Positions 24,627 through 55,008 of a stretch of 64,000 bases of DNA are shown here, in pieces. The DNA is from Corynebacterium sp. GTDB taxonomy: Bacteria; Actinomycetota; Actinomycetes; Mycobacteriales; Mycobacteriaceae. Under the pieces are notes generated by a model. The model was not told the origin of the DNA. It searched no databases and saw only the letters and a program-made list of their open reading frames with translations. Within the stretch, counting starts at the first letter, position 1. Each line of letters starts with the position of its first letter. The DNA lies in the NCBI RefSeq assembly GCF_030532715.1, contig NZ_JAUNKO010000003.1:294575-358574 (forward strand). Direction: 5' to 3'. A program made the position numbers and the translations under genes.

Positions 24627-24632
24627 CCGGCT

Positions 24633-38197: not shown

Positions 38198-38218
38198 GGC
38201 ACATATAACAACGGTGCG

Positions 38219-38594
38219 TTTTTCCAGCTCACCGACGGCGATACTTGAGGTACATATGGCTAAGCAAGGCAGATTCTGCAAGAGGCAAATCGCGCACGGA
38301 GTTGTCCGCGGCGTCGATAAACACTGAACTGCGGCACCGGCGTTTCGGCTCCCTGCGGCGAGAGCCTATTCTGACTGCCTCTTCAACGTTGTTGTCGAAT
38401 CTGCCTTAAATATTTTCAATGCGAGCGAGTTTTCGCAGCTCACCGACGGCACAAAAGAGGCGAATCCCGCTAGGTAAGGCAGATTCTGTGGCAAGGCAGA
38501 TTCCGCGGGGAGCGGGGTAGTAAAAGTAGCTTAGAGGAGGGGGAGCTCAGCGCCGGAGTTGTCGGCGGCGTCGATAAGCACTGTGACGCGGCAC
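38219..38594. repeat. Imperfect direct duplication carrying GGCAGATTC elements
   Basis: Copy 1 (38219-38337) and copy 2 (38429-38594) share, in order: CAGCTCACCGACGGC, then AAGGCAGATTCTG, then GGAGTTGTC-N-GCGGCGTCGATAA, then CACTG and GCGGCAC. Copy 2 has an extra internal GGCAGATTCC unit. A further GTCGAATCTGCCTTA at 38394 lies between. This fills the 450-nt gap between mshD and the convergent DUF559-like gene; no gene is seen. Confidence 0.8.
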
Positions 38595-39589: not shown

Positions 39590-39756
39590 AACCTTAGTGT
39601 TAGTTCTGGGGCCGGCTTGCGGCTAGGGTTTTTCTGGCACGCTGATCTGAGCCTGTGGATAACTGGACGTTTTCCCCAGTTTTTCTAGCCGCCTCCCAAA
39701 AGGCCTTGCATACAGCTTGAGTTCAGTGTATAATTCCCGCCTCTCGACGCCGCGTT

Positions 39757-40908
39757 TTACCCGCCGGAGTGCATAATTTCGGCGCCTTCCGGCACGGTGT
39801 CGTCTTCGGGGTTGTCGAGCCATCCTTCGGGGAGCACGACTTTCCCAGGGGATCCTTGCCGCCCGCGTGCCCCTTCGGAATCTGCCGCGAGTGAGTCAGA
39901 TTCCGCCCACGGGTCGAGCGCTTGGGCGATGTCGGCGAGGGAGCGGACTTGGGCGAGTTTGGCGCGGGCGTCGCCACCCACGGGGAAGCCGCGAAGGTAC
40001 CATCCCATGTGTTTGCGCAGGTCGCGGCAGCCTTTTTCGGCGCCTTCATGCGCTATGAGCAGTTCCGCGTGGCGCAGTATAATGCGTGTGACCTCCCCAA
40101 GCGTCGGTTCGGGAGGGATGGGTTTACCGCGGAGCGCGGCGGAAAGCTGGGGGAAGAGCCAGGGGCGACCGAGGCAGCCGCGGCCGACGACAACGCCGTC
40201 GCAACCAGTTTGCTGCATCATCGCGGCGGCGTCGGACGCTTTGAAAATGTCACCGTTGCCGAGCACCGGCACACCAGAGTCCGCCAAATGTGCCTTGAGG
40301 CGGCGGATTTCACCCCAGTCTGCAGTGCCGGAGTAGCGTTGCGCGGCGGTCCGTGCGTGGAGTGCGACGGCGGCGGCTCCTTCAGCTGCGGCGATGCGCC
40401 CGGCGTCGAGATGGGTGTGGTGTTCGTCGTCGATGCCGATGCGGAATTTGACTGTGATGGGAATGTTGGTGCCTTCCGTGGCGCGTACGGCAGCGGCTAC
40501 GATGTTTGCGAAGAGTCGGCGTTTGTACGGCAAGGCAGATCCGCCGCCGCGGCGAGTTACCTTTGGCACGGGGCAGCCGAAGTTCATGTCGATGTGGTCG
40601 GCTAAGTTTTCGTCTACCACCATCTTCGCCGCTTCGTACGTGTATTTGGGGTCGGTGGTGTAAAGCTGTAGGGAGCGGGGGTCCTCGTTGGGCGCGAACG
40701 TCGTCATGCGGAGGGTTTTTTCGTTTCGCTCTACGAGCGCGCGGGCGGTCACCATTTCGCACACGTAGAGGCCCGCCACGGTACCCGTCTTTTCGAGTTC
40801 CAGTTCGCGGCACAGCGTGCGGAACGCGACGTTCGTTACGCCCGCCATCGGCGCCAACACCACGGGGGAGTGCAGCGCGAGGGATCCGATCATCAGTGTC
40901 ACCGCCAT
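39757..40908 (-). CDS. dusB: tRNA-dihydrouridine synthase (DusB family)
   Basis: FMN-dependent enzyme that reduces uridines in the tRNA D-loop. 383 residues with a TIM barrel. APMAGVTNVAFR at 19-30 is the FMN-binding start. The catalytic Cys112 is in DMNFGCPVPKVTRRGGGSAL, and the second FMN site has VPVLGNGDIF and VVVGRGCLGRPW. The C-terminal helical domain contains KHMGWYLRGFP. The last 40 residues are a low-conservation tail containing two copies of the GGCAGATTC-type repeat at DNA level (39879-39905). Confidence 0.93.
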   Translation of the reverse strand: MAVTLMIGSLALHSPVVLAPMAGVTNVAFRTLCRELELEKTGTVAGLYVCEMVTARALVERNEKTLRMTTFAPNEDPRSLQLYTTDPKYTYEAAKMVVDENLADHIDMNFGCPVPKVTRRGGGSALPYKRRLFANIVAAAVRATEGTNIPITVKFRIGIDDEHHTHLDAGRIAAAEGAAAVALHARTAAQRYSGTADWGEIRRLKAHLADSGVPVLGNGDIFKASDAAAMMQQTGCDGVVVGRGCLGRPWLFPQLSAALRGKPIPPEPTLGEVTRIILRHAELLIAHEGAEKGCRDLRKHMGWYLRGFPVGGDARAKLAQVRSLADIAQALDPWAESDSLAADSEGARGRQGSPGKVVLPEGWLDNPEDDTVPEGAEIMHSGG

Positions 40909-41147
40909 ATTGTCGCACGCTTATCGACGCCGCGCACCTCAAGCCACCGTCCGCACCTCGCGCGCGGGCGGGGGTAAAACGTGGGGAGCATATTGTAAAG
41001 ATTTGCGGAAGTAGGGGCGTGTGGCGGGGGGATTTGGGATACTGTGGTCACCACAACTTGGGTTCCATCGTATAGGGTGCGTCACAGTACCCGGTGGGGT
41101 CTATGTCACACGAAGACACGTTAAGGTCAGAACTCTCAGGAGGATAC

Positions 41148-42665
41148 ATGTCCGATCGGATCGCAAACGCCAAGCTTCGCGGCAAGGTGATGTCCGCAGA
41201 GGAAGCGGCACAACTGGTTAACCACGGTGACAAGGTCGGCATCTCCGGCTTCACCGGCGCTGGTTACCCGAAGGCGCTCCCCTCCGCCATCGCAGAACGC
41301 GCCAAAGAAGCCCACGCACGTGGCGAAGAGTACATGATTGACCTGTTCACCGGCGCGTCGACCGCGCCGGACTGTGATGGTGTGTTGGCCGAGGCCGACG
41401 CAATCCACTTCCGTACTCCGTACCAGTCTGACCCGATCCTGCGGTCCAAGATCAACGACGGCACCTCTTTCTACGCGGACTATCACCTGTCCGAGTCCGG
41501 CCTCTACGTCGAACAAGGGTTCTTCGGCCAGATGAATGTAGCCATCGTGGAAGTTGTCCGCATCACCGAAGACGGCCACCTGGTGCCGTCTTCCTCCGTG
41601 GGCAACAACGTTGAGTACCTGGATGCCGCCGAGAAGATCATCATCGAGGTCAACTCGTGGCAGTCCGAAGAGCTCGAGGGTATGGCGGACATTTGGCGCA
41701 ACAAGAAGCTGCCGAACCGCACGCCGATTCCGATCACCGAGCCTGGTCAGCGTATCGGTACCACCTACATCGACATTGATATTGACAAGGTCGTTGCCGT
41801 GGTGGAGACGGACCTGCCGGACCGCAACGCGCCCTTCAAGCCGATCGATGATCAGTCCAAGCAGATCGCCGGCCACTTCCTCGACTTCCTGGAAAGCGAG
41901 GTGGCCGCAGGTCGCCTCACCTATGACGGCTACCGCATGCAGTCGGGCGTCGGCAATGTTCCGAACGCGGTGATGAGCGGCTTGCTCGACTCCAAGTTCG
42001 AAAACATTCAGGCGTACACCGAGGTTATCCAAGACGGCATGGTGGACCTCATCGACGCTGGCAAGATGACCGTTGCCTCCGCAACCTCCTTCTCCCTGTC
42101 GCCCGAATACGCCGACCGCATGAACCGCGAGGCCTCCAAGTACGCCAAGCAGATCATTCTGCGCCCGCAACAGGTATCCAACCACCCCGAAGTAGTCCGC
42201 CGTCTCGGCTTGATCTGCACCAACGGTCTCATCGAAGCGGACATCTACGGCAACGTTAACTCCACCAACGTCATCGGCTCCCGCATGATGAACGGTGTCG
42301 GCGGATCCGCAGACTTCACCCGCAACGGGTACATCAGCTCCTTCATTACCCCGTCCGACGCCAAGGGCGGCGCAATTTCCGCAATCGTGCCGTTCGTTTC
42401 GCACGTTGACCACACCGAGCAGGACGTCAAGGTGGTCATCACCGAATACGGCTACGCTGACCTGCGTGGACTCGCCCCACGTCAGCGCGTGAAGAAGATG
42501 ATCGCGCTGGCCCACCCGGACTACCGCCCGCTGCTCGAGGAATACTACGAGCGGGCACTCCACTTGGCCGAGAAGAACAAGACCATGCAGACGCCGCATG
42601 ACCTCGCGAACGCCTTCAGCTTCCACCAGCGCTTCGCCGAGACTGGCACCATGAAGAAGAGCTAA
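41148..42665 (+). CDS. cat1: Acetyl-CoA hydrolase / succinyl-CoA:acetate CoA-transferase (Cat1/ActA)
   Basis: Transfers CoA between acetyl-CoA or succinyl-CoA and acetate. 505 residues, the size of the C. glutamicum enzyme. GISGFTGAGYPKALP lies near the N-terminus. The catalytic Glu is expected in VVITEYGYADLRG and the oxyanion loop in MNGVGGSADFTRNG. The ATG at 41148 is preceded by AGGAGG. The upstream gap (40909-41147) has several G4-6 runs next to T or C, the kind of site reported for RamA, whose gene lies at 61030; binding is not shown. Confidence 0.9.
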   Translation: MSDRIANAKLRGKVMSAEEAAQLVNHGDKVGISGFTGAGYPKALPSAIAERAKEAHARGEEYMIDLFTGASTAPDCDGVLAEADAIHFRTPYQSDPILRSKINDGTSFYADYHLSESGLYVEQGFFGQMNVAIVEVVRITEDGHLVPSSSVGNNVEYLDAAEKIIIEVNSWQSEELEGMADIWRNKKLPNRTPIPITEPGQRIGTTYIDIDIDKVVAVVETDLPDRNAPFKPIDDQSKQIAGHFLDFLESEVAAGRLTYDGYRMQSGVGNVPNAVMSGLLDSKFENIQAYTEVIQDGMVDLIDAGKMTVASATSFSLSPEYADRMNREASKYAKQIILRPQQVSNHPEVVRRLGLICTNGLIEADIYGNVNSTNVIGSRMMNGVGGSADFTRNGYISSFITPSDAKGGAISAIVPFVSHVDHTEQDVKVVITEYGYADLRGLAPRQRVKKMIALAHPDYRPLLEEYYERALHLAEKNKTMQTPHDLANAFSFHQRFAETGTMKKS

Positions 42666-42685
42666 CCCGCTTCTTTAAAGACTCA

Positions 42686-42728
42686 CGCCGTGACCCCGCG
42701 CACTTGGGGGAGCGGCGGTTTCTTTTTT
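42686..42728 (+). terminator. Rho-independent terminator of cat1
   Basis: CGCCG-TGA-CCCC pairs with GGGG-GAG-CGGCG and is followed by GTTTCTTTTTT. It lies 21 nt past the stop. Confidence 0.85.
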
Positions 42729-42771
42729 CGGGGTTGGGGGTTGTCGTGTTGCGGGTGTGTGCTGGCTGCAC

Positions 42772-42900
42772 GTCGGATCTGCCTTGCTGTTGTTCCGCCG
42801 CTCAGGCAGATTCGACATGTGCACCTCGAGGTTGGGGTATTGCCGCAGGATGGGAAACACCTTACGTCGGATCTGCCTTACTGCTCAGGCAGATTCCGCG
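42772..42900. repeat. Two hairpin copies of the GGCAGATTC element
   Basis: Copy one: GTCGGATCTGCCT (from 42772), about 16 nt, then AGGCAGATTCGAC. Copy two: GTCGGATCTGCCT (from 42866), 7 nt, then AGGCAGATTCCGC. Each can fold into a stem of about 12 bp. They lie between the cat1 terminator and tRNA-Lys; no gene is visible in this 275-nt stretch. Confidence 0.75.
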
Positions 42901-43003
42901 CCGGGTGCCGGAACGCCAGGAATTCCCCTGCTCACAAGGCGATTTCCTAAGTTTGGGGCGAGTCGCTAGAATGGCAGAGTATTGGTTGCGGTTGTGCGAC
43001 CAA

Positions 43004-43076
43004 GGGCCTTTAGCTCAGTTGGTAGAGCTACGGACTTTTAATCCGCAGGTCGTGGGTTCGAGCCCCACAGGGCCCA
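43004..43076 (+). tRNA. tRNA-Lys (anticodon UUU)
   Basis: 73 nt. The acceptor stem GGGCCTT / AGGGCCC closes with one G-U pair. The D-arm GCTC-AGTTGGTA-GAGC, anticodon arm ACGGA-CTTTTAA-TCCGC and T-arm GTGGG-TTCGAGC-CCCAC are all standard. Discriminator A; CCA not encoded. TAGAAT at 42967 could be its -10. Confidence 0.97.
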
Positions 43077-43082
43077 CATTTT

Positions 43083-43108
43083 GCCCCCGTTCCCTGCGGG
43101 GGCTTTTT
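43083..43108 (+). terminator. Rho-independent terminator behind tRNA-Lys
   Basis: GCCCCCG / CGGGGGC with a 7-nt loop, directly followed by TTTTT, 6 nt past the tRNA. Confidence 0.9.
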
Positions 43109-43160
43109 GACGCCCCCCCGGTTACCGCTTCCCCGTACCCTACCGTCGATGCGGTTGTGT

Positions 43161-43529
43161 TTATGTGGCCTTGCTGGCTGTGGTGCGTTTGGTGGATTTG
43201 AGCGTTGCGGCGATGAGGGCCCCTCCGAGGATGGTACCGATGGCGGCCCCGACGAGCCCGGTCCCTGTGTAGATGCCGAGCATGAGAAGTGTGACGAGCA
43301 TTGCCGCCGCGATGCGTGTGGTGAGTGAGTTGAACGCGAAGAAGCCGATGATGATCAGTGAGATCCCGGCGACGAGGAACCAGAGTGCTTGGCTTTCCGG
43401 CATGGTGTCGACGCTCATCCACCATCCTTGGCCGGCGGCGGCGCGGAGGTGCATCCAGTCGGTGGCCATGCAGTGGGCGATCCCCATGATTGCGAAGAGG
43501 GCGCCGGTCCATTTCTGCATGTTTGCCAT
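43161..43529 (-). CDS. Small integral membrane protein, DUF6463-like
   Basis: About 122 residues with four predicted helices: KWTGALFAIMGIAHCMATDW, ALWFLVAGISLIIIGFFAF, IAAAMLVTLLMLGIYTG and VGAAIGTILGGALIAATL, then a basic tail. The pattern resembles small DUF6463-type membrane proteins; function unknown. Start ATG chosen at 43529; another ATG lies 3 codons later, and an extension upstream has no ribosome site. Single gene between tRNA-Lys and glgX. Confidence 0.65.
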   Translation of the reverse strand: MANMQKWTGALFAIMGIAHCMATDWMHLRAAAGQGWWMSVDTMPESQALWFLVAGISLIIIGFFAFNSLTTRIAAAMLVTLLMLGIYTGTGLVGAAIGTILGGALIAATLKSTKRTTASKAT

Positions 43530-43736
43530 CGGTATTGCTTTCGGTCGAGCTTGATGCTGTGTGCGATAGTATCGCGTCACGTTTGTTTTAACTGAGAAAT
43601 TCAGTAATGCACTGAACGATTGAATATTACCGCATCACAGCCGCTATTCCGGTATCGCAAATGTTACCGTTGTGACAATATTTCGTTTCTTTCCGCACTC
43701 CCGCGTATCGACGCCGCCCTCTCCCGCGCGCCGCCG

Positions 43737-46076
43737 CTAGGCGTTGCGCGTCCGGTGCCACACCGCGATTGACCAGGGGTGCACGGAGTTGTGCGCGTGC
43801 ACGATGGCGCCTTCATCGTCGGGCCAGTAGTTGTTCACTAGTTCCGCCCAGGATGCGGTGTCGATGATGTAGTGCCAGTCGGAGGTGCGGAATTCTTCGG
43901 GGATGTAGAAGTTGACGGATTCGCCGGACATGTTGATCATCACCCAGAAGTTTTCTTCGGGGGAGTCGATGTATACGCCGAGGGCACGGTCGCCTTCGGT
44001 GGGTTGCCCGTCGCCACTGGGGTTGTAGAACAGGTACGACACGTCGCCGTTGTTGGCTACGAAGTCGCCCCACTCGGTTTGCTGCAGGCAACTGTGGCGA
44101 TGCCGCATGTGCATTAAGTATGTGGCGAATCGGAACAATCCATTGACGGTTGGTTCGTCGTTGGCGAAGGTGCCTAGGTTGTCGTGGTACGCGGCGTCGA
44201 TATCTTCCGCCACGGGGACACGTTGCGGGGAGTTGCTGGCAATCATGTCGTAGTTATTGCGCATTGCCACGGAATGCAACGCCCACGGATTGTTGTTGCC
44301 GTTCTGGGTGCGGCCGAACTCGTCTCCGGCGACGATCATTGGTACGCCACGGGAGAACATGAGGATGGTCCACAGGTTGCGCAGGCGTTGGCGCCGCAAG
44401 GTGTGGTCGCCGCCGGAATCCCAGGACAAGTTGTTGTCGCTGCCGCCGTCGGATGGGCCGAAGGGGAAGGGTTGGTCGTTGAGCTTCGTTTGGTAGCTCA
44501 CCAAATCCGCGAGGTTAAAGCCGTCGTGGGCGACAACGAAGTTGATGGTTTTCTGGGGGCCGCCGTTGTCGTGGAAGTGGTGGTAGTCCCCGTTGAGCAT
44601 GTCCACAAACTCGCCAACATTGCCTTCGCCCTTGGTGAAGCTGCGCACCGCATCTCGGTAGCGGCCGTTCCATTCGCCCCAGCCGCGGGGGAAATTGCCT
44701 ACCTCGTAGCCCCACAGGTCCCAGGCTTCCGCGATGACCTCTACATGGTCTTCCTCGGCCAGCTTCGCGATCTCCACCAGCAGCGGGTGCTCGGTGAAGA
44801 AGCGTTTCTGGTTGCCCCAGTCGTCTCGATCCGCTTCCCCAGGCTGGCGGCCCAGGACGGTTGCAAGGTCGAAGCGGAAACCGTCCACATGCATTTCGCG
44901 CGACCAGTAGCGCAGCGAATCGAGCACCAGTTGCTGGGCCGCGGCAGAGGAGTAGTTCAACTGGTTGGATGTGCCTGTGGCCCCGTCGACCAGGATATTG
45001 TCCCCGGTCATTTGGTAATACTCTGCGGTGGCAAAACCGCCCAAACTAGTGAACCCAGTGGTGTTGACGTCGCCGTTCCAGTTGCCGCCCTCCGCGGTGT
45101 GGTTGTACACGACGTCGAGGTACACTTCCATGCCGGCCTCGTGGAAGGCGGAGACCATTGCTTTGAATTCTCGGGTTGGCCCGCCCCAACTTTTGTCCGC
45201 GGCGTACTTGCGGTTCGGGGCGAAAAACGCCAGGGTCATGTATCCCCACGAGTTTGTGGCGGCGTCTCGGCCGCTTTCTGAAACATTGGTTTCGTGGACG
45301 GGGAGTAGTTCCACCGTGGTGATTCCCATGCTTTTCAGGTACGGGGCGAGCATGCCTGCGCCTTTGTACGTGCCGTGGTACTCGGCGGGAATATTGACCA
45401 CTTCCTCGAATCCGTGTTCGCCGCTGAGGATGTCGGCGAGGCGGGCGACGGAGGGGTGGCCGGTGAGTTGCTCGATGCTGGCTTCGTAGATGATTGCGTC
45501 TTCCGCAGGCAGATTCGGTTTGGGTGTGACTTCCGCATCGCACGCCACCACAACGCCTTTTGGCGCGAACGGTCCCGTATCGATGACGCGTCGGGGCACG
45601 CCGTCGATGATGTCGCCGCCCGTGCCGAACACGCCGTCGTTGACGCCGAAGCGTTGCAATTCATCCGTAAAGACATTGTGAGAAACTTCGCGAGAATACG
45701 GGTCGAAGAGCACTTTGTTTGGGTTGAAACGGTTACCATGTTCGTCCAGGTCAGCAATGAAACCCGCATCTGAACCAGGTACCCACTCCGGGTCAAACAC
45801 CCAGTTTGGGCCCCACGCGCGGAACCCGATGAGCGCGCCCAACTGCAAGCCCTGCAATTTTGCGCGCCACACGCCGTCTTCGCCGCGTTGCGGAAGGAAC
45901 GTGTGCGACGCCGTGACGCCCAGGGATTCTGGAAACACTTCCAATTGCAAACGTGTGGCAGCCGGGGCGAACACAGCGAAAGTGACACCGTCGGCGTGTG
46001 CGTGTGTACCAAGCGGCCAGGTGGCAGAAGACCACGTTGCTTCGTCCAATGCGATGATTTCGGTCATGGGGGCCAT
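43737..46076 (-). CDS. glgX: Glycogen debranching enzyme GlgX
   Basis: Isoamylase-type GH13 enzyme that removes alpha-1,6 branches from phosphorylase-limit glycogen. 779 residues, an actinobacterial-type length. N-terminal CBM48-like domain (about 10-110), then the catalytic barrel with DVVYNHTAEGG, DGFRFDLATVLG (nucleophile Asp), VIAEAWDLWGY (acid/base Glu) and NFVVAHDGF (transition-state Asp). The C-terminal beta domain ends in HPWSIAVWHR. Two ATGs 9 nt apart can serve as start. A GCAGGCAGATTCGG copy of the dispersed repeat core is within the gene near 45505. Confidence 0.9.
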   Translation of the reverse strand: MAPMTEIIALDEATWSSATWPLGTHAHADGVTFAVFAPAATRLQLEVFPESLGVTASHTFLPQRGEDGVWRAKLQGLQLGALIGFRAWGPNWVFDPEWVPGSDAGFIADLDEHGNRFNPNKVLFDPYSREVSHNVFTDELQRFGVNDGVFGTGGDIIDGVPRRVIDTGPFAPKGVVVACDAEVTPKPNLPAEDAIIYEASIEQLTGHPSVARLADILSGEHGFEEVVNIPAEYHGTYKGAGMLAPYLKSMGITTVELLPVHETNVSESGRDAATNSWGYMTLAFFAPNRKYAADKSWGGPTREFKAMVSAFHEAGMEVYLDVVYNHTAEGGNWNGDVNTTGFTSLGGFATAEYYQMTGDNILVDGATGTSNQLNYSSAAAQQLVLDSLRYWSREMHVDGFRFDLATVLGRQPGEADRDDWGNQKRFFTEHPLLVEIAKLAEEDHVEVIAEAWDLWGYEVGNFPRGWGEWNGRYRDAVRSFTKGEGNVGEFVDMLNGDYHHFHDNGGPQKTINFVVAHDGFNLADLVSYQTKLNDQPFPFGPSDGGSDNNLSWDSGGDHTLRRQRLRNLWTILMFSRGVPMIVAGDEFGRTQNGNNNPWALHSVAMRNNYDMIASNSPQRVPVAEDIDAAYHDNLGTFANDEPTVNGLFRFATYLMHMRHRHSCLQQTEWGDFVANNGDVSYLFYNPSGDGQPTEGDRALGVYIDSPEENFWVMINMSGESVNFYIPEEFRTSDWHYIIDTASWAELVNNYWPDDEGAIVHAHNSVHPWSIAVWHRTRNA

Positions 46077-46256
46077 ACTTCCACGGATGCGCTTGGCGCG
46101 GCTGCAACCGTGGCGTATTTTTTAGCAAAAGCGCTTCACGATCGCCAGTGAAACCCCCGTTGCAGCGCGCACGCCTCGAACCCGTGCACTAAGTTTCGGG
46201 CTGCCGCATGTTTTCCCCGCCGATGGGGGTAGTCGTTGGGCTACCCTGCGCCGGGA

Positions 46257-46997
46257 TTACGGTGCGTTGAGGGCGGCGACGAGTTCGGGTAGTCCGACAG
46301 CGGCGGTGGTGCGCCAAGACACGTCCGCGAACCGCGTGAGTTCAGTGTCCGCGGGTGAGATTTCCAGAACAGGTATTCCCATTTCCACCGCAATAAGGGG
46401 TAACGACGCCGCGGGCTGTACAACGCCCGAAGTGCCCACAATAACAAGCAAATCTGAGTTCGATATTGCGGTCTCTGCTTGGTTCCATTCCCGTTGTGGG
46501 AGTGCTTCGCCAAACCACACAACGCCTGGTCGTATGTAGTTTCCGCACAATGGGCATTGCGGCGGGGTGAGCCGTTCGACGGGTTCATCTAATAGTTCAA
46601 CTTTTCGATACGGCCGCGAGCAGATGGTGCAGCGCCATTCAAAGAGGCTCCCGTGTAGGTGGATGACGTTGTGGGCTCCCGCCCGTTCGTGCAAATTATC
46701 GATATTCTGCGTCACGATCGTGCCTATCGACGCCCACTCTGCCAACGCGACGTGCCCAGCGTTCGGCTCCGCACGCTGCGCCAACGTAGCGCGCCATAGG
46801 TACCACGCCCACATTGGTTCTGGGTCGCGAGCCCAAGCGGAAATCGACGCCATGGCTTGTGGATCGACATTTTCCCACAGTCCAGTGGTGTCATCGCGGT
46901 ACGTTTGGATCCCGCTTTCGGCGCTCATGCCGGCGCCGGTGAATACGGTCACATTGGAGGATTCTTGGGCAAGCTTGAGTGCGGATTCCAGGCTCAT
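46257..46997 (-). CDS. Sirtuin (SIR2-family NAD-dependent protein deacylase)
   Basis: 246 residues. NAD-binding motif TGAGMSAESGIQTYR at 20-34, TQNIDNLHERAG at 96-107, and catalytic His115 in VIHLHGS. The zinc module uses Cys123, Cys126, Cys148 and Cys151, and the second nucleotide region has IVGTSGVVQPAASLP. Removes acyl groups from protein lysines using NAD, for example regulating acetyl-CoA synthetase. The ATG at 46997 is chosen because it leads directly into the fold. It reads away from the candidate non-coding RNA at 47074. Confidence 0.9.
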   Translation of the reverse strand: MSLESALKLAQESSNVTVFTGAGMSAESGIQTYRDDTTGLWENVDPQAMASISAWARDPEPMWAWYLWRATLAQRAEPNAGHVALAEWASIGTIVTQNIDNLHERAGAHNVIHLHGSLFEWRCTICSRPYRKVELLDEPVERLTPPQCPLCGNYIRPGVVWFGEALPQREWNQAETAISNSDLLVIVGTSGVVQPAASLPLIAVEMGIPVLEISPADTELTRFADVSWRTTAAVGLPELVAALNAP

Positions 46998-47037
46998 ACT
47001 TTCGAGGGTAGCCGCAGGTGATGGCCGCAGCATGCTA

Positions 47038-47067
47038 TTGACACCAAAACTCAGCGCTCTTTATAGT
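47038..47067 (+). promoter_or_regulatory. Near-consensus sigma-70-type promoter of the structured RNA
   Basis: TTGACA (47038-47043), an 18-nt spacer, and TATAGT (47062-47067). The expected transcription start is about 47073-47076, at the foot of the first hairpin of the RNA candidate. Confidence 0.7.
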
Positions 47068-47073
47068 ATTACG

Positions 47074-47900
47074 CAGAAAATGGGTTCTCCTATTTTCTGC
47101 GGCCTGACGCACGAGGGGTGCGCAAGTTCCCCAAAAGGTGGACCTGACAATCCGCCGCCAAGGTTGCTTTCGTCTACGGGGGCATCGTTGGAACCTCAGG
47201 CAATCCGCGCACTTTAGTCTTACAAGGCTCCACCTTGTGAGGCCGCGACGCCAAGCATTACCGGGAACCCGGGCAGGGTTCACCTGGGTAAGAACGCAAC
47301 CCACAACGGTATGGCCGCGACGCATCGTGTGTACGCGGAGGGCTCACAAGTCCGAGACTGTCACTCGAGGGCGGGGGCCATAAACACCACGCGTGGGTTG
47401 GCGAATTCGCGCGCAATGTTTAATTGCGAGTAGCCCGACAGCGAAAGCTATTGAGGCGTGGAGCATTCCGTCGATGGAAACAGCAACGGAACTCCAAGAG
47501 GAAGCGCGTCTCGCGTCAACCGATACTAGCCGTATCATCATCTCATTCAGGGAAAGCGAAAGCCTTCCTCCGTGACAGCCGAAAGTGCCTTAATGGTTTG
47601 CAAGGCAACTTGAACAAACCCCACGTCGCGGCCGCAAGCCAACATGTGGTTCATATGGGAATAATGCAGCTCAGGGGCTAGCTACCCACGAGCGAAGTGA
47701 AACCTGTGGAGTAGGCGATCACGAAAAGAGTGGTGGGCTCAACCGACCAGGCACGGTGAATACCGTAGGGATACGGTGGATACATTGAGAATCAATAATG
47801 CAATCAAAGTTCACCATCGAAAAGCATTGAATCTAGGTGCTTTTCCCCACAAGGGCGCAACCCCGGAGTGACCCCAGCCGCAAGCTGACCACTCCGGGGC
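47074..47900 (+). ncRNA. Candidate large structured non-coding RNA, class not recognised
   Basis: About 830 nt without a credible protein gene but with a strong promoter and dense secondary structure. It starts with a 10-bp hairpin, CGCAGAAAAT / ATTTTCTGCG (47072-47101). A two-part stem with GGAG/CTCC and TTCCGT/ACGGAA lies at 47460-47495, CGCAAT/ATTGCG at 47412-47428, and GATAC/GTATC at 47522-47536. An H-type pseudoknot is formed by TGCCTT/AAGGCA interleaved with GGTTTG/CAAACC (47586-47620). GNRA-type loops occur in AGCGAAAGCT and GCCGCAAGC. It ends in GAAAAGCA/TGCTTTTC (47819-47845) and a 10-bp stem CCCCGGAGTG/CACTCCGGGG (47861-47899). I do not see the diagnostic motifs of tmRNA, RNase P RNA, group I or group II introns. 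The 3' end is uncertain. Confidence 0.6.
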
Positions 47901-47961
47901 CTTGTCATTTCCCTGTCCTTTTCGGTCAAATCAAGACCTCACCATCCTCGCTGCGGCCTAG

Positions 47962-48087
47962 TCAGGCAGATTCGACATTGAGGTCCAGTTGGATCACCAT
48001 ATCCCCAAGACGCCGACCACCGCCTGTTGAATCTGCCTTGACGCGAGCCGATTCAGGCAGATTCGACGCGGAGGCAGATTCGACGCT
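47962..48087. repeat. Cluster of four GGCAGATTC elements
   Basis: AGGCAGATTCGACA at 47964, its inverse TTGAATCTGCCT at 48028, and two direct units AGGCAGATTCGACGC (48055) and AGGCAGATTCGACGCTG (48072). They lie between the structured RNA and the lipoprotein gene. Confidence 0.75.
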
Positions 48088-48121
48088 GCGGCGGATCGGC
48101 GCCTTGCCCGCGTCACCGGGG

Positions 48122-48814
48122 TTAGTCGAGGGTGGTGTGCTCCACGTTCATTAACCGGGTGTTTTCGAGGAGGTCGTTGAGTTCGGTTTCGTTGTAGGCT
48201 TCCGCGGGGCAGGCATATTCCAGAGTCATGGCCATGGGCTTGCTTGCGCTTGCAAAGGTTCGGAACCAGGCGGAGGAGCGCTTGGGTTGTCCGTCGGCGC
48301 TGGTGTACGTGGCGTCGGCACGCAGGGTGGATACTTTGGTGTCGCCGATTCCGCGGATGTCGGTGGACTCTTCGACGGTAAACACGGGGTCGGTGCTTTC
48401 GCTTGCGAGTGCGGTTTTCCAGTCGTCGGCTTGGCGTTGGCTTTCGGCGCGGTCGTCTGATTTGCCTTCGCTGGTGAAGGGCTGTTGTGTGGCCGTATAG
48501 CTACATCCGTTGGTGTGTTCGAGCTGTAGTTTGTTTTGTTCGTTGCGCGGTGCCATGGTCCAGCCGTCGAATACGAGTGGGAAGTTCCAGGCGGGCCCGC
48601 CGTCGTTGAGCGTTTGGTCGATGTAGGTGCCGCTGCTGGCCGCATTGCTCGTGCTGCTTGCGGATTGCGTCTTTTTCATTGTGGACAACACGGGTACGTT
48701 GTCTTCCGCGGGGTCGCTTTCCGCGCTGCAGCCTGCGAGGGTGAGCGTGGCGAGCGCGACTAGGCTCGTGGCCAGGGTTGACGCGGTGCGGAGTCGTCGG
48801 CGTTGCGCGTGCAT
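48122..48814 (-). CDS. Predicted lipoprotein of unknown function
   Basis: 230 residues. A signal peptide with an Arg-rich start (MHAQRRRLRT), hydrophobic core and lipobox LAGC gives a lipid-anchored Cys at 29. The mature part has a Ser/Thr-rich linker followed by a soluble domain with WNFPLVFDGWTMAPRNEQNK and CSYTATQQPF; the two later Cys may pair. No known family is recognised with confidence. It resembles small corynebacterial cell-surface lipoproteins. The ATG at 48814 was chosen so that the signal peptide starts properly. Confidence 0.78.
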   Translation of the reverse strand: MHAQRRRLRTASTLATSLVALATLTLAGCSAESDPAEDNVPVLSTMKKTQSASSTSNAASSGTYIDQTLNDGGPAWNFPLVFDGWTMAPRNEQNKLQLEHTNGCSYTATQQPFTSEGKSDDRAESQRQADDWKTALASESTDPVFTVEESTDIRGIGDTKVSTLRADATYTSADGQPKRSSAWFRTFASASKPMAMTLEYACPAEAYNETELNDLLENTRLMNVEHTTLD

Positions 48815-48945
48815 GGGGGAGGCTCGTTCCTTTGCGGGTTGGCGGCTGCTTACGTCGGCAAAATAATTGGGCACAAGTTTACCGACGCCCAGCGCTGCCC
48901 CGAGCAGCGAATCGCAACGTTTGCTACTTCACAGCAACATTTTCG

Positions 48946-49902
48946 TTAGTTCGTGGGTTCGTTTTCGGTGGCGTTGAGGGTGGGGGTGACCCACTCGCGG
49001 AATTCGGTGGCGTCGTCGCCGACGAGCCGCAGCGCGTGCCTAATCAGCGCCGGCAATTCCGTGTTCGCTGATGTTTTCGCATTGGGCTCGATGGTGATGA
49101 GCCCGAGTTCGGAGCTGAGCTGCGTTTGCCAGTACCGTACGGCGACGATGGGTGGCATGCGGCGCGTCAGGAAGTCGAGTGCGGGTGGCCGGATTCGGCC
49201 GCCTTGAGCGCGGTAGCCCCGCAACCCTGACCGCATGCTTATCGACGCCGCGGTAAGCAACTCTATGTCCTGCGCGGCTTCGCGCACTCCACCAATCGGT
49301 TTGAGAACCATCACGCGCAATACCGATGCGATAATCGCATGGGTGTTCAGCCAATCGATCATGTAAGGCTCCCGTTTGACGGCCAAACCGGTGGCGGCGA
49401 ACAATTCGTACACCTCGTCCGCGTGGGTGGCCGTGGCGTCTACCAGGGTGCCTTGTTGAGGGACTGGCATCCAGGTGATGGAACCGTCGTTGTTGCGCCG
49501 GCCGCCAATGCCTGGGAAGGCGAGCACCACCCGATCGTTGCCAAGACGCTTTGTGAGTTCGTCTAGCTGGTCGCCGAGGTGCATAAGGGGCACAATGATG
49601 CGGCATTCCAGCGTGTCTAGGGCGTCGAGCACCGGTTCGAGGTGGTGTGCCTGGAGGGCGAGGATTGCGACGTCGATAGGCGGGAGCTCGGTGAGGGTTG
49701 CGGTGGGTACGTGGACATGTTGCTTGCCGAAGTGTTTGACGTGCGAGTCGAGGCGGATGCCGTCCGGAAACGCGTTCGCGGTGCGGGTCACCAAGGTAAC
49801 GTCCACGCCGGATTCGAACAATTGCGCGGCGTACACGCAGCCGATTTCGCCCGCGCCAATAACCGCGACTTTCGCGTCAGTGCGTTTCGAACGGCGCGCC
49901 AC
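48946..49902 (-). CDS. Ketopantoate reductase-like (PanE/ApbA family) NADP-dependent dehydrogenase
   Basis: 318 residues. The Rossmann motif VAVIGAGEIGCVYAAQL is at 12-28; DVAILALQAHHLEPVLDAL and VLAFPGIGGRR follow in the places used by 2-dehydropantoate 2-reductases, and the helical C-terminal domain is complete. The catalytic Lys of PanE is not obvious; KPIGGVREAAQDIELL may carry it. It could make pantoate for CoA synthesis or reduce another 2-oxo acid. Single gene; upstream of it, across a 60-nt gap, is the MFS gene on the same strand. Confidence 0.75.
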   Translation of the reverse strand: MARRSKRTDAKVAVIGAGEIGCVYAAQLFESGVDVTLVTRTANAFPDGIRLDSHVKHFGKQHVHVPTATLTELPPIDVAILALQAHHLEPVLDALDTLECRIIVPLMHLGDQLDELTKRLGNDRVVLAFPGIGGRRNNDGSITWMPVPQQGTLVDATATHADEVYELFAATGLAVKREPYMIDWLNTHAIIASVLRVMVLKPIGGVREAAQDIELLTAASISMRSGLRGYRAQGGRIRPPALDFLTRRMPPIVAVRYWQTQLSSELGLITIEPNAKTSANTELPALIRHALRLVGDDATEFREWVTPTLNATENEPTN

Positions 49903-49962
49903 GGTGAACTCCTTGCGTCGAAAGGTGATGCAAGTTAAGTGTTACCGAGGCGCGTGGGCTCG

Positions 49963-51312
49963 TCAAGATTGGCCGTCCCGCCCGTTGGGTTCGTTGCGAG
50001 TGGCCTCCAGTGTGTTGAGGAAGTGTGTTTGAAGCTTGCGAGCGCTGCGGGAGCGTTGAAGGGTGGCGGCAATGGCGGCGAGGAGCGCCCCAACGAGGAG
50101 GAGCATGAGGCCGATGCCGCGTTCCCCGCCGACACCAATGAGCTGGCCAACGGTGGGTGCGAGGGCGCCGTCGGGCTGGAGGAGGGGATTGAACACGTGG
50201 TCGGCAAGCGGTCCGGCGAATGCGTATGCGATGAGGTAGCCGAGCTGGGAGATTAGCGACACGAGCCCCCAGATACGGCCTTGGGTTTCGTTGGGAATGG
50301 CGGCCCGGACGAGCACTTCGAGGCTGGTGTTGAGGACGGGCAGCGTCATGAAGAATGCGAACGCGAACACCGCGATCACAATGACGTTTGGTCGCGCGCC
50401 GATCCCGGCGACAGTGATGCCGGCGGCGAGCAACCCGAGCGAAAGATAACGTAGGTGATTGTTGCCGGTGCCCTTTGCGCCGATGATCCCGCTGGACACG
50501 AGCATGCCGCACGCCGCCGTTGACGTGAGCAGTCCGAGCGTGCGTTCGTCGGCGAGGTCAAGCACGAGCGGGGTAAACAGTGTCTGTACGAAGCCGATGC
50601 AGAACGTGACCAGGGTGATCAGATACAGCATTGTGAGGACGCCGCGCTCGTGCGCGAAAAACGCAACCCCGTCGCGGAATTGTTTCCAGAAGTTCTCCTC
50701 TTGGGTGGGGGTGGCGCTGGCGATGGTGCGCCACACGAAGACCATGGCCAGAATCGTGGTGCACATGGTGCAGATGTCTATTGTGATGAGCAGTGTGATG
50801 TTGAACCGGGCGAGCAGCATGCCGCCGAGCGCCGGGGCGATGAGGTATTGGCTTGCGGAGGCGAGCTGCACCATGCCGCCGGCGCGGGCGTATTCCTCCG
50901 GTGTGAGGAGATCGGAAACGGTGGCCCGGTAGGCGGGCTCCATCACGGATTGGCAAACGGAGCTCAATGCGACGCAGGCGCACAGGACAGCCACCGACGC
51001 CTGTTGGTGTAGTGCGATGAGCAGCAGGAACAGGCCGCTTGCGGAGCTAGCGTCACCCAGGATCATGACGATGCGCCGGTCGAACCGGTCCGCAATTACT
51101 CCACCGAATGGGGCGAGGAGTACTGACGGTAGGAAGCTGGCCATGGCGATCATGGCGACGGGCGTTGTCAACCCGGTGAGGTGGTAGACATACACGCCGA
51201 GTCCGAACGCGGTGAGTCCGTTGCCGGTGCGTGCGATGAATTGCGCGGCCCAAATGAGAAGGAATGTTTGAAACCCTGAGCGGTGGGTGCGCGGCGGAGT
51301 CTGCGAGTTCAT
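49963..51312 (-). CDS. MFS efflux transporter
   Basis: 449 residues with 10-12 membrane segments. FLLIWAAQFIARTGNGLTAFGLGVYVY begins TM1, and GVIADRFDRR is the loop 2-3 motif A. MEPAYRATVSDLLTPEEYARAGG is typical of the enterobactin-exporter-like (EntS/DHA3) branch. Probably exports a drug or siderophore; the substrate is unknown. The frame stays open upstream, but the ATG at 51312 is chosen because the extension lies opposite the GNAT gene and has no ribosome site. A TetR-type palindrome lies about 55 nt upstream. Confidence 0.85.
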   Translation of the reverse strand: MNSQTPPRTHRSGFQTFLLIWAAQFIARTGNGLTAFGLGVYVYHLTGLTTPVAMIAMASFLPSVLLAPFGGVIADRFDRRIVMILGDASSASGLFLLLIALHQQASVAVLCACVALSSVCQSVMEPAYRATVSDLLTPEEYARAGGMVQLASASQYLIAPALGGMLLARFNITLLITIDICTMCTTILAMVFVWRTIASATPTQEENFWKQFRDGVAFFAHERGVLTMLYLITLVTFCIGFVQTLFTPLVLDLADERTLGLLTSTAACGMLVSSGIIGAKGTGNNHLRYLSLGLLAAGITVAGIGARPNVIVIAVFAFAFFMTLPVLNTSLEVLVRAAIPNETQGRIWGLVSLISQLGYLIAYAFAGPLADHVFNPLLQPDGALAPTVGQLIGVGGERGIGLMLLLVGALLAAIAATLQRSRSARKLQTHFLNTLEATRNEPNGRDGQS

Positions 51313-51366
51313 TGTTGATCGTCCTCGAGTTTGAGGTGGTGTGCTAGCTCCAGCATACGCCTCAAC

Positions 51367-51379
51367 CGACCGTCGGTCG
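51367..51379. promoter_or_regulatory. TetR-type operator candidate upstream of the MFS exporter
   Basis: Perfect inverted repeat CGACCG-T-CGGTCG between the divergent MFS and GNAT genes. Such ACCGACCG-type palindromes are common TetR-family sites in actinobacteria. No TetR gene is in the window. Confidence 0.45.
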
Positions 51380-51465
51380 AGTGTCTTTAAGGGCCGACCA
51401 ACGTAGGGGAGTTGCGCGAACCTAGGGGTGGGGCGGCGGTTTTGTGTCAAAATTGGAGGTAGAAC

Positions 51466-52185
51466 GTGCCGCGCCGGGCGTGGAGCTGGGACGACCGCGG
51501 CACCGAGGTTGGAAGGGAGTGGGTCCACATGTTCAATCCGGAGTACTGGCCGCACGCGGGACTTTCCATCAGTGTGGGGCACATGCGGCTGTGTTGGGCG
51601 ACCGACGACATGCTTGCCACACTGGCCGAAGTCGCAGCTGAGGGCGATCAGCCGCCGCAGGAACATCCGTTCCATTCGGAGTGGTCGTTGTCGAGTCCAG
51701 AGGACCGCGCCAGGTGGGTTTTGCAGCAGCAGTGGAAGCATCGCGGCAACGTTACGGAAGGCGTGCTGAACTTCCAGCTTGCCGTGCTGTATAAGGACGA
51801 GCCGGTCGGGTTGCAAATCGCGCGCAGTGTCGATTGGCCAACCACGCGAGTAGCGGAGACTGGTTCCTGGCTTGGGCATCAATACCAGCGTCGCGGTTGG
51901 GGAACACAGATGCGCGCGCTCATTTGTGAACTTTTGTTCCAAGGGTTCGACGCGCTCGAGGTGCACTCCGCGGCGTTCGTGGATAATCCCGGGGCGCTCG
52001 GCGTGTCCCGTAAGCTGGGATTTTTCCCTAATGGCAGCACGTGGGCGGACCGTGCTGGGGAGCGCGTCGAGGTGGAGCGTTACCGCCTGCCGCGCGATAA
52101 GTGGATGCAGCGCCGCCTGGAGGCATTTCCGGCACCCGTTCGAATGGAAGGCGTCGAAGCTGTGCGCGAACGCTGGGGCCTTTAG
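51466..52185 (+). CDS. GNAT-family N-acetyltransferase (RimJ-like)
   Basis: 239 residues. RimJ/RimL pattern: LSISVGHMRLCWATDDMLATLAEVAAEG at the start of the domain, then TGSWLGHQYQRRGWGTQMRALICELLFQ, which contains the Q/R-x-x-G-x-G/A acetyl-CoA loop, and AAFVDNPGALGVSRKLGF. Probable substrate: an N-terminal amine or small molecule. The GTG at 51466 has GGAGGTAGAAC directly upstream. Ends about 130 nt ahead of the tRNA genes. Confidence 0.8.
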   Translation: MPRRAWSWDDRGTEVGREWVHMFNPEYWPHAGLSISVGHMRLCWATDDMLATLAEVAAEGDQPPQEHPFHSEWSLSSPEDRARWVLQQQWKHRGNVTEGVLNFQLAVLYKDEPVGLQIARSVDWPTTRVAETGSWLGHQYQRRGWGTQMRALICELLFQGFDALEVHSAAFVDNPGALGVSRKLGFFPNGSTWADRAGERVEVERYRLPRDKWMQRRLEAFPAPVRMEGVEAVRERWGL

Positions 52186-52316
52186 CGGGCCCACGGCCCA
52201 GCGTCCCGACGCCTCGCCCGCAACCGCATCGTCGCAGTTCATCGCGTGATTTGCGTAGATTGATGCGGTTGCGTATATTTCTGTGAAGTCGCATCAACCG
52301 AGTGTTGTGGCGACAA

Positions 52317-52389
<73 letters not shown>

Positions 52390-52419
52390 CAAAACGAGCC
52401 GGCTTCGGCAAGTTTTTAT

Positions 52420-52493
52420 GGCCCTGTGGCGCAGTTGGTTAGCGCGCCGCCCTGTCACGGCGGAGGTCGCGGGTTCGAGCCCCGTCAGGGTCG
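52420..52493 (+). tRNA. tRNA-Asp (anticodon GUC), copy 1
   Basis: 74 nt. The acceptor GGCCCTG / CAGGGTC has one G-U pair; anticodon arm CCGCC-CTGTCAC-GGCGG, T-arm GCGGG-TTCGAGC-CCCGT. Discriminator G. Identical over its full length to copy 2 at 56171-56244. Confidence 0.96.
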
Positions 52494-52500
52494 CAATGAA

Positions 52501-52552
52501 AGTATGGAGGGCGTGAATATCCCAAGGGATTCACGCCCTCCATACTTATTTG
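52501..52552. terminator. Long perfect hairpin terminator behind tRNA-Asp copy 1
   Basis: An 18-bp perfect stem, AGTATGGAGGGCGTGAAT and its complement, with a 10-nt loop, followed by TATTTG. It lies between convergent transcripts (tRNAs from the left, response regulator from the right) and can serve both. Confidence 0.85.
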
Positions 52553-52566
52553 TATCCACCCCCGAT

Positions 52567-53172
52567 CTATAACCAGCCGTTTTCCTCGGCGGTTCGCACC
52601 GCCTCGTAGTGGTTTCTAGCTTGGGTTTTTGTGATGATGGTGGACAAATGATTACGCACAGTCCCGGGAGATAAGTGCAGGGTACGGGCGATTTCTGCGG
52701 TGGAGCTTCCCGTCACGGCGGCGCGACATATTTCTATTTCACGGTTAGTTAGTGGGTTTTCGGGGAGAAAAAGGGACTGCTCCGCCAGATCGGGATCGAT
52801 GGCGCGGTAGCCGCTGTGCACACGGCGGATGGCATCGGCGAGTGCCGCGGGTGGGGTGTCTTTGACCAGGAATCCGCGCGCGCCTGCTTCGATGGCGCGT
52901 TTGAGGTAGCCGGGCCTACCGAATGTGGTCACGATGATGGCGGCGCACTCGGGCACCGCCGCGTGGAGGGCTGCCGTGGCGGCGATGCCGTCGAGCCCTG
53001 GCATTTCGATGTCAATGAGGGCAACGTTGGCACCGCTTGTTCGGGCGGTGTCCACAAGGGCGGTGCCGTCGCCTATCTCGGCGACGATGGTGAGGTCCTT
53101 TTCAAGTCCGAGCAGGGCTGCGAGGGCGCCGCGTACGAGGGCTTGGTCGTCGGCGATAAGGACGTTGATCAT
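52567..53172 (-). CDS. NarL/LuxR-family response regulator
   Basis: 201 residues. The receiver domain has acidic Asp8/Asp9, phospho-acceptor Asp54 in ALIDIEMPGLDG, Thr82/Thr83 and Lys104 in FLVKDTPP. The C-terminal LuxR-type helix-turn-helix is LTNREIEICRAAVTGSSTAEIARTLHLSPGTVRNHLS. Overlaps the kinase gene by 4 nt. It most probably regulates the ABC transporter genes of its own operon; a 16-bp palindrome at 55966-55981 is the candidate site. Confidence 0.92.
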   Translation of the reverse strand: MINVLIADDQALVRGALAALLGLEKDLTIVAEIGDGTALVDTARTSGANVALIDIEMPGLDGIAATAALHAAVPECAAIIVTTFGRPGYLKRAIEAGARGFLVKDTPPAALADAIRRVHSGYRAIDPDLAEQSLFLPENPLTNREIEICRAAVTGSSTAEIARTLHLSPGTVRNHLSTIITKTQARNHYEAVRTAEENGWL

Positions 53173-54257
53173 GGCTGCTCCAGGATGATATCTATGGTGG
53201 TTCCGCGGGTTTCGGAGCGGATGTCCAGGGTGCCGCCCGCTTCCGTGATCCGCTGGTGGAGCCCGGTGAGGCCGTTGCCGTGGGTGGCGGTGCCGATGCC
53301 GCGGCCGTCGTCACGCACGGTCAGGCGGGTGGGGGTAATGGTGATGGCGACGTGGCGGGCACCGGAGTGCCTCATGATGTTCGTGGTAGCTTCGCGCAGC
53401 GCCCAGGCGAAGATTCGATTGGTGGCGGTGGGCAGCTCGCCAGCATGAACAAGTGCATCAACGGTGGGGGTGATGTGGGCGGCTTTGAGGGCTTGGGTCG
53501 CGGCGGTGAGTTCGGTGTCAAGGGAGGGGGCGCGCAGTCCGGTGACGGTGGATCGGACCTCGGTGAGGGCGTTGCGACTGAGTTGGGTGATGTCCGTGAT
53601 TTCGGTGGCGGCGCGCGCGGGGTCGAGCTCGAGGAGTTTTGCTGCGAGTTCGGATTTAAGGTTGATGACGGTCAGCGTGTGGCCGAGAATGTCGTGGACA
53701 TCACGGGCAACGCGTTCGCGTTCCGTGGCGATGGTAAGTTGCTGTTCCATGACGTGGTGGCGTTCGCTGAGTTCGGTGCCGTAGCGCATGAGTGCAAGGG
53801 AGGCGAACGCAGCGGTAATGATGGCGTTTTGGTGCCAGGAATTTTCACTGATGATCGTCCCGATGAGGAAGCCGGATCCGACCGCCAGGATGAGCGACAA
53901 CCCGATGCGCAGTGTGGTGCGAAATGCGGCGACCGCGACAACGTACGGCAGGAGGACGGCGACGCTGGGGGACCCCACGAGGAAGAAACACGCCAGCGTC
54001 ACTAGGGCGAGCGCCCCGACCCACATGCTTGTCGACGCCCTCGTGGCCCGGGCAATGTAGGAAAAGCTGAGGATGTACAGGGCGACGAACGCAGCCAGCA
54101 GCATGTAGGCGAATATTTTTGTGACTGCGCTCAAGTGTGGGGCGGTTGCGACATCAACGATGAAGTAGATGAGAAAAACCGTCCACACGCTTGCTTGGAG
54201 CATGTATCTCAGGGTCACAGTGTTCACCCTAGTTGGTCTTTTAGGCGAGGCGCCCAT
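53169..54257 (-). CDS. Sensor histidine kinase (DesK/NarX-type, HisKA_3)
   Basis: 362 residues. Four to five predicted membrane helices in the first 155 residues without a large sensor domain, so the signal is probably in or at the membrane. The dimerisation/phosphorylation helix ERERVARDVHDILGHTLTVINLK carries His188. The HATPase domain has WALREATTNIMRHS as N-box, VRDDGRGIG and GNGLTGLHQRI. The ATG at 54257 overlaps the permease end by 17 nt; starts at 54227 (GTG) or 54203 are possible. Partner of the response regulator behind it. Confidence 0.88.
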   Translation of the reverse strand: MGASPKRPTRVNTVTLRYMLQASVWTVFLIYFIVDVATAPHLSAVTKIFAYMLLAAFVALYILSFSYIARATRASTSMWVGALALVTLACFFLVGSPSVAVLLPYVVAVAAFRTTLRIGLSLILAVGSGFLIGTIISENSWHQNAIITAAFASLALMRYGTELSERHHVMEQQLTIATERERVARDVHDILGHTLTVINLKSELAAKLLELDPARAATEITDITQLSRNALTEVRSTVTGLRAPSLDTELTAATQALKAAHITPTVDALVHAGELPTATNRIFAWALREATTNIMRHSGARHVAITITPTRLTVRDDGRGIGTATHGNGLTGLHQRITEAGGTLDIRSETRGTTIDIILEQP

Positions 54258-55008
54258 GATCTCGCCGCCAGAGCAGGACGTTCACTCCAGCGAACACTAG
54301 TGTCCATCCCGCTATGTTGGCGAGCGCGTACCACAGGGGATCGGTGACGCTGAAGGGGGCGTCGCTCAGCGCTTGGAAGCCGTGCGTGAGTGGGAAACGG
54401 GCGAGGGCAGTGCTCCCGTACAGGGGACTAAACCTGCCGATGCTGAGGATAGTTTCGGACAGCGGCGCGAAACTATTGCCGAGAAACGACAGCGGCACGA
54501 TGCACCCTGTGGCGATGGAAACTGCGCCGTGTGAGCGAAATGCGGTACCGAACGCTAGTCCGTACAGGCTAAAAGGTACGCACGCCGCGACTGTCAGCGC
54601 CGCGGTGATTACCCAGGTTGCGGCGGGTAACGACGCCCCGCTTACCCACCCGCACATGAACACAGCGGCGACGGGGAGGCAGATGCGCAACGAAGTGACC
54701 GCCACATGGGTGACGAGTCGCTGCCAGGTACGCAACGGCGTGAGGGCGAGTTGGCGCTGCCAGCCGGAGGTTTCGTCAAGGACGATGCCGCCGACGGAGC
54801 TCACGGCGCCGGTGATTCCGCCGTAGATGGCCATGCCGATCATGGAGTAGGCGAGGATGTTGCCGTCGCCAATCGGTTGGTCGCTGGTTACATTGGTGGA
54901 GTCGAGCACCAAGTACAAAAGCACCGGCAGGACGATCGAAAAGAACAGCGGGGAGCGGTCCTTGAGCATGCGCCGGATCTCCAGGTTGATATAGCGAGCG
55001 AGGTTCAT
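54241..55008 (-). CDS. ABC-2 type transporter permease
   Basis: 255 residues with six predicted membrane helices. Starts with the cytoplasmic IRRMLKDRSPLFFSIVLPVLLYLVLDS typical of DrrB/YadH-type ABC-2 permeases; EVSG-like DETSGWQRQLALTPLR follows TM2. Works with the ATPase at 55005, overlapping its stop by 4 nt. Such pairs with two-component genes often export antimicrobial peptides, lipids or antibiotics. Confidence 0.87.
   Translation of the reverse strand: MNLARYINLEIRRMLKDRSPLFFSIVLPVLLYLVLDSTNVTSDQPIGDGNILAYSMIGMAIYGGITGAVSSVGGIVLDETSGWQRQLALTPLRTWQRLVTHVAVTSLRICLPVAAVFMCGWVSGASLPAATWVITAALTVAACVPFSLYGLAFGTAFRSHGAVSIATGCIVPLSFLGNSFAPLSETILSIGRFSPLYGSTALARFPLTHGFQALSDAPFSVTDPLWYALANIAGWTLVFAGVNVLLWRRDHGRLA

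Follow-up and report, generated by a model that had tools for sequence, protein, structure and literature searches.

A GOLLD RNA gene in an ordinary stretch of a Corynebacterium chromosome

Between a sirtuin gene and a probable lipoprotein gene of a Corynebacterium sp. lies a region of about 830 nt that appears to encode no protein, and the question is what kind of RNA it specifies and how that RNA came to stand there. By the window we mean the whole stretch of DNA that was analysed, 64,000 nt in length. The original prediction had described a large, ornate non-coding RNA of the OLE, GOLLD or ROOL sort with a promoter of its own, and had left it without a class. The description holds, but the missing assignment can now be supplied, as the RNA passes Rfam's curated cut-off for GOLLD.

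Class and genomic setting of the RNA

The GOLLD model RF02032 matches the plus strand over its full length (model positions 1-416; cmscan), with a score of 180.1 bits against a gathering score of 150 and an E value of 5.2e-49 in the whole window, or 1e-50 when 46900-48150 was searched alone. It is the sole match to this model in its own genome at E ≤ 10. Seven Rfam matches exceed their cut-offs in the whole window, namely five tRNAs, one cobalamin riboswitch (60008-60188, minus strand, 51 bits) and the GOLLD. A permissive Rfam scan of 46900-48150 returned GOLLD alone at E ≤ 1, in agreement with the earlier judgement against tmRNA, RNase P RNA and introns; ROOL, OLE, tmRNA, RNase P RNA and 6S gave no match at that threshold. 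Such a scan had been named beforehand as the test for a known class, and its significant match to GOLLD places the RNA in one. On the sequence evidence, the large structured RNA is a GOLLD, and the locus is a further member of an already known class in an unusual setting. Among the papers found in a search for GOLLD, which left most subscription papers outside, no title or abstract opening speaks of a solitary chromosomal copy in Corynebacterium.

GOLLD RNAs have been described as phage- or prophage-encoded and often near tRNA islands, a setting that is typical rather than defining. The ten neighbours and the nearest tRNA genes of the window locus give no sign of such a setting. The ten neighbouring ORFs scanned (38648-55907, with at least two more ORFs, 52567-53172 and 54241-55008, outside the scan) include no clear phage gene and no integrase, and their PHROG matches are confined to Sir2, Dus, MFS, kinase and ABC-type proteins, all families that are also cellular. 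The nearest tRNA genes, a Lys gene and a Glu-Asp pair about 4 kb to each side, end at 43077 and start at 52317. It is a solitary GOLLD in an ordinary stretch of bacterial chromosome, adjoined, as had been noted from the start, by the sirtuin gene (Table 1). A structure search with one window protein gave nothing informative. The window also contains a dispersed intergenic repeat around TCAGGCAGATTCGAC in both orientations, with 18 matches (at most 2 mismatches) versus 0.12 expected. Its sites lie at 24632-24720, 38183-38408, 42802-42899, 47962-48084 and 59350-59678; it also occurs directly after the GOLLD terminator, and one copy occupies the corresponding place in a related genome, G025.

Within the genus, RF02032 was found at E ≤ 0.001 in 4 of 242 genomes, three of them over the cut-off, and in none of 14 controls. 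Besides the window genome (G000), the carriers are G055 (173 bits), G025 (161 bits) and G041 (34 bits, a partial match under the cut-off). Comparison of the first three species shows RF02032 membership, a homologous 5' domain and the same gene order, sirtuin-GOLLD-lipoprotein. G041 has a sirtuin nearby and keeps both ends of the RNA, with most of the middle missing, so the RNA can be lost. In the same genome an Abi_2 gene (PF07751; L007 10426-11352) stands between the sirtuin and the gutted remnant. Thirteen further genomes of the genus, chosen as near by CoA-transferase or sirtuin, matched the window RNA at E 0.095 at best, and G191, whose CoA-transferase is 96% identical, has no GOLLD, sirtuin or close GlgX in an assembly that is 88% complete.

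These distributions bear on whether the block GlgX-sirtuin-GOLLD-lipoprotein is an old resident of the lineage or was recently transferred. A close copy of the neighbouring GlgX (85-87%) is present in only 2 of 11 genomes examined, both of them GOLLD carriers, and because the gene is patchy in this way the block may have moved as a unit. The CoA-transferase tree (15 rows) supports G000 with G025 alone (98/93), sets G191 beside them at 85/85 and does not resolve the carriers as one clade, and the copies of a second genus lie in several different neighbourhoods. In contrast, the sirtuin tree of the best 30 of 156 sequences supports inheritance in one clade: it joins G000 and G025 (99/93), adds G055 (93/86) and groups the carriers with G041 at 91/78, which is not a firm branch. 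In addition, blastn matches between the window and G025 keep a single order throughout 41.0-52.5 kb, and the ten neighbours include no integrase. Recent transfer is in our opinion unlikely, though serious enough to be kept in mind beside long residence in the lineage.

Conservation of the GOLLD structure

The Rfam structure, which was taken from outside the compared sequences, was placed on the window through the cmscan alignment, giving 95 pairs, 87 of them with both sides present. In the window 76 of these 87 pairs are standard, versus 26-32 with slid partners, the placing itself having been fitted by cmscan; across the three species the figures are 87.7% versus 33-39%. Sixteen of the 87 pairs are changed on both sides among the three intact copies, compared with 7.1 ± 2.0 after shuffling, and 52 of 87 among eleven copies, compared with 31.4 ± 2.9, neither value being reached by any of 500 shuffles. 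The shuffles do not keep relatedness; slid controls, which do, gave 1-4 pairs for the three copies and 10-17 for the eleven. By other measures on the three copies, the number of cells changed on both sides was reached by 1 of 500 shuffles and that of further standard pair types by 44 of 500. Some helices are poor in the eleven-copy set, e.g., helices 9, 11 and 13, with 56-63% of cells paired. For the 5' domain, RNAalifold reported compensatory change in 18 of 105 pairs (3 sequences) and 28 of 56 pairs (11 sequences), with folds predicted from the same alignments and no control.

The identity of the window GOLLD to that of G025 is 77% and 78% in the 5' and 3' alignments, respectively, and to that of G055 70% and 76%. 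Fourfold-degenerate sites of neighbouring genes are 42-59% identical to G025 (five genes) and 19-43% to G055 (four genes), although the latter range may be lowered by composition, as GC is 51% in L005 (from G055) and 53-65% in the window at 40-54 kb. Judged from these sequence comparisons, compensatory change maintains the GOLLD structure, with identity above that of neighbouring silent sites, and the RNA looks to be kept by selection. The contrary reading, a decaying and functionless relic of a prophage or of a phage tRNA array, would fit the two RNA ends left in G041, the window copy's lack of a linker tRNA and the lack of a match in most genomes of the genus. It is improbable, however, since the pair changes on both sides in the three intact copies exceed all 500 shuffles, GOLLD identity lies well above that of fourfold sites, the promoter hexamers and their spacing are kept exactly, and no clear phage gene was found among the ten neighbours.

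Domains, promoter and transcript ends

Table 1. Features of the GOLLD locus and its flanking genes (positions in the window)
Feature	Position	Strand	Basis and remarks
SIR2 family protein (sirtuin)	46257..47033	-	PF02146, E 1.1e-49
Sigma-70-type promoter TTGACA-N18-TATAGT	47038..47067	+	Sequence scan; recurs in G055 and G025
Opening 10-bp hairpin, first transcript element	47075..47098	+	Predicted fold; +1 probably near 47075
GOLLD 5' domain, outside the Rfam model	47101..47450	+	Aligns with 10 other GOLLD genes; putative cap domain by analogy with env-38
GOLLD 3' domain	47451..47842	+	RF02032 full-length match, 180.1 bits
Shortened variable linker, about 37 nt	47517..47553	+	Alignments; small GATAC-TAGCC-GTATC hairpin by eye
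Single hairpin, loop CUAGCUA	47674..47687	+	Alignment to RF02032; stands where the model has two neighbouring hairpins
3' terminal hairpin CCCCGGAGTG/CACTCCGGGG plus CAAGG/CCTTG	47850..47904	+	Predicted fold; probable terminator, weak T tail
Probable lipoprotein	48122..48874	-	No Pfam match; LAGC lipobox by eye

The 416 positions of RF02032 correspond approximately to the size of the 3' region (residues 421-833) in the solved env-38 GOLLD (PMC12286853), which should make the 350 nt upstream the 5' domain. Alignment of 11 full-length genes likewise points to a total length of more than 800 nt with a separate, less conserved 5' domain. It is true that this half has no Rfam match and that its profile matches none of 118 viral stretches with a GOLLD pattern at E ≤ 1, as might be expected if the RNA belonged to a separate new class of ornate RNA without relation to GOLLD. 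However, the RF02032 match is full-length and above the curated cut-off, and we regard a new class as already refuted by it; ten other genomes have the same 5' domain ahead of RF02032 3' domains, and lower conservation of the GOLLD 5' region is stated in the accessible text of PMC12286853. A class of its own is accordingly very improbable.

At the position of the linker, eight copies from the family carry a tRNA-like element and the window a small hairpin. Each of the eight has a D-arm, a complete T-stem and 4-6 of 7 acceptor pairs, and for 6 of these copies ARAGORN recognized a tRNA within the linker. The wider acceptor-stem count (3-6 of 7 pairs, with 5 of 5 in the T-stem) covers the 10 of 14 sequences that fit the pattern; the window, G025 and the Mycobacterium phages Rey and Reindeer did not fit it. 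The G055 linker has a D-arm and a 5-bp T-stem by eye, Rfam found no tRNA in the linkers of G055 and G025, and a profile of the family linkers matched ordinary tRNA genes and not the GOLLD linkers of Corynebacterium. For the linkers of this genus a tRNA origin is thus no more than suggestive. The window copy, having no linker tRNA, is unlikely to serve as the carrier of a tRNA joined to it covalently.

Where RF02032 has two hairpins near positions 233-258, the window has one with a self-complementary loop, and one published half-shell contact may consequently be missing; the equation with L21a/L21b was made through our own mapping of model positions to env-38 residues. The window and G055 share the loop sequence CUAGCUA, and G025 has CUUGCUA. 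UAGCUA is self-complementary, and its central GC is kept in G025, in line with what a symmetric kissing loop requires. This loop is a candidate for such a contact between subunits. Two smaller proposals about the interior of the RNA did not survive. An H-type pseudoknot had been drawn at 47586-47620 (47586-47591 with 47602-47607); all 6 of its pairs can form in the window, two relatives each retain 5 of the 6, so that its drawn form is not conserved, and it competes with an Rfam hairpin that bears a GNRA loop in the window, G055 and G025. A repeat of GGCCGCGACGC at 47241 and 47313 is present in the letters, but the element is unrepeated in G055 and in G025, and it was rejected because neither relative keeps it.

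The proposed promoter stood up well. It is the sole sigma-70-like site in 46950-48150, with 11 of 12 matches, where shuffles averaged 0.7 sites passing the scan minimum, and its counterparts in G055 and G025 have identical hexamers and spacing around a different spacer sequence. The predicted fold contains all three helices named beforehand, i.e., the opening hairpin, an interrupted stem near 47460-47495 and the closing hairpin, and the 826-nt RNA has a folding z of -4.8, none of 20 shuffles being as stable. By eye, the opening hairpin is near-perfect in G025 and imperfect in G055; no counterpart was seen in the eight family copies. The 3' terminal hairpin shows compensatory changes in the relatives; the terminator scan did not report it.

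Eight ORFs of at least 50 aa overlap the RNA, six of them (52-96 aa) inside it or at its edge and two (216 and 105 aa) across its ends, and none is kept in both G055 and G025, as expected from the earlier view that no plausible protein is encoded. Seven of the eight meet a stop in at least one of the two relatives; 47258-47416 on the minus strand is open in G025 and closed in G055, and 47837-48154 on the plus strand has no match in G055 and aligns with G025 only as two fragments that lie in different frames. A coding reading was rejected on these grounds, and it is very unlikely that the RNA is an extended leader or a coding transcript belonging to a neighbouring gene, for which these eight ORFs might speak, because none is kept in both relatives and both flanking genes lie on the opposite strand.

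Phage relatives, possible function and known systems

Across the family, RF02032 was found in 9 of 401 genomes (the window genome included) and 3 of 31 genera, with 4 matches over the cut-off, and a phylum-wide search found it in 2 of 396 genomes, both already known. In a second genus 8 of 59 genomes carry GOLLD, and 2 of these matches exceed the cut-off. Its loci (L136-L142, L208) have tRNA-like linkers with imperfect acceptor stems. The seven copies examined are solitary, each with such a linker, and ARAGORN found no tRNA in their 16-kb stretches except inside the RNA; ten neighbours from four of these seven loci gave one PHROG match, an acetyltransferase. The copy of G398 lies among 11 other tRNA genes, like published mycobacterial clusters. 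GOLLD in such clusters is reportedly also the subject of Morgado et al. 2020.

A consensus pattern found at least 118 stretches in viral contigs, and the first 14 examined all proved to be RF02032, one of them cut at a contig end; a genus-specific pattern had no match in the viral contigs, and two scans of genome contigs were likewise empty. Searched by blastn against 50,697 phage and 72,556 plasmid records, the window RNA matched none at E ≤ 0.01; the G055 RNA at E ≤ 1 matched 10 phage records, the best at E 0.07. The G398 copy matched 61 phage records (32 Mycobacterium, 19 Streptomyces and 10 others); among the 25 of the 61 matches listed, all are Mycobacterium phages and cover 51-53% of the query. 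For G492, of the second genus, there were 29 records, and the 25 matches listed are confined to the tRNA-like linker and span 7-8% of the query. We also observed a related GOLLD-like 3' domain inside the tRNA arrays of Mycobacterium phages Rey (L187 3001-3389) and Reindeer (L188 3001-3396). Neither domain has a GOLLD annotation, and part of Rey's is annotated as tRNA-Ser.

The account that we consider probable as a whole is that the locus is a full-length GOLLD RNA gene with its own promoter, of phage origin, retained by the cell and forming a cage. A housekeeping-type promoter would drive an RNA of about 830 nt that ends at the 3' hairpin. The gene may derive from a phage-type tRNA-array GOLLD whose linker tRNA has disappeared, and the cell would now be maintaining it. 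By the example of published cages, the RNA would fold into two domains and assemble into a closed RNA-only cage like the env-38 14-mer; the transcript and cage expected here are predictions from sequence and analogy. In its boldest form, on which we are evenly divided, a phage-born RNA nanocage has been adopted as the cell's own gene, kept in the lineage under selection on its structure and with a tRNA-free linker, with a parallel adoption in the second genus. If so, the cage would be a natural RNA compartment in the service of the bacterium and not of a phage.

The literature consulted, in its accessible portions, treats GOLLD in phages, prophages and tRNA clusters. The GOLLD of a Lactobacillus brevis prophage was dispensable for phage production (as cited in the part of PMC7567579 available), and Kretsch et al. 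mention pull-down experiments with ribosome binding (accessible text of PMC12286853). A tentative guess, somewhat doubtful in our own eyes, is that the cage encloses or protects a partner from the cell, most likely a component of the translation apparatus, during stationary phase or phage attack. A solitary and apparently selected chromosomal copy could be deleted with no phage in the way, and a copy nearly free of a linker separates the cage from the tRNA, so that comparison with the tRNA-bearing copies of the second genus makes the cargo idea testable.

Three known systems invite comparison. Like the window RNA, ROOL is large and ornate, and it forms cages (accessible text of PMC12286853); it is, however, unrelated to the window RNA in sequence and structure, with no match in 46900-48150. 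For residence in a replicon other than a phage, the Lactobacillus salivarius lncRNA (ROOL) offers a megaplasmid precedent (accessible text of PMC5643018). The mycobacterial GOLLDs are likewise actinobacterial, and a pseudo-tRNA inside the RNA is a feature of theirs. In contrast to the window copy, they sit in large tRNA clusters with an HNH gene, which are read as horizontal acquisitions (Behra et al. 2019, PMC6582537, and the follow-up of 2022, PMC9569102, both in their accessible parts). The GOLLD env-38 of Kretsch et al. 2025 is a closed RNA-only cage, a 14-mer held by kissing loops and A-minor contacts (PMC12286853, accessible text). The window copy differs from RF02032 and env-38 in having no recognized phage gene or tRNA island close by, a linker of about 37 nt without a tRNA, one hairpin where the model has two, an extra opening hairpin and its own promoter. 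It resembles them in its full-length 3' domain, a variable linker in the same place, a separate 5' domain and a length of more than 800 nt.
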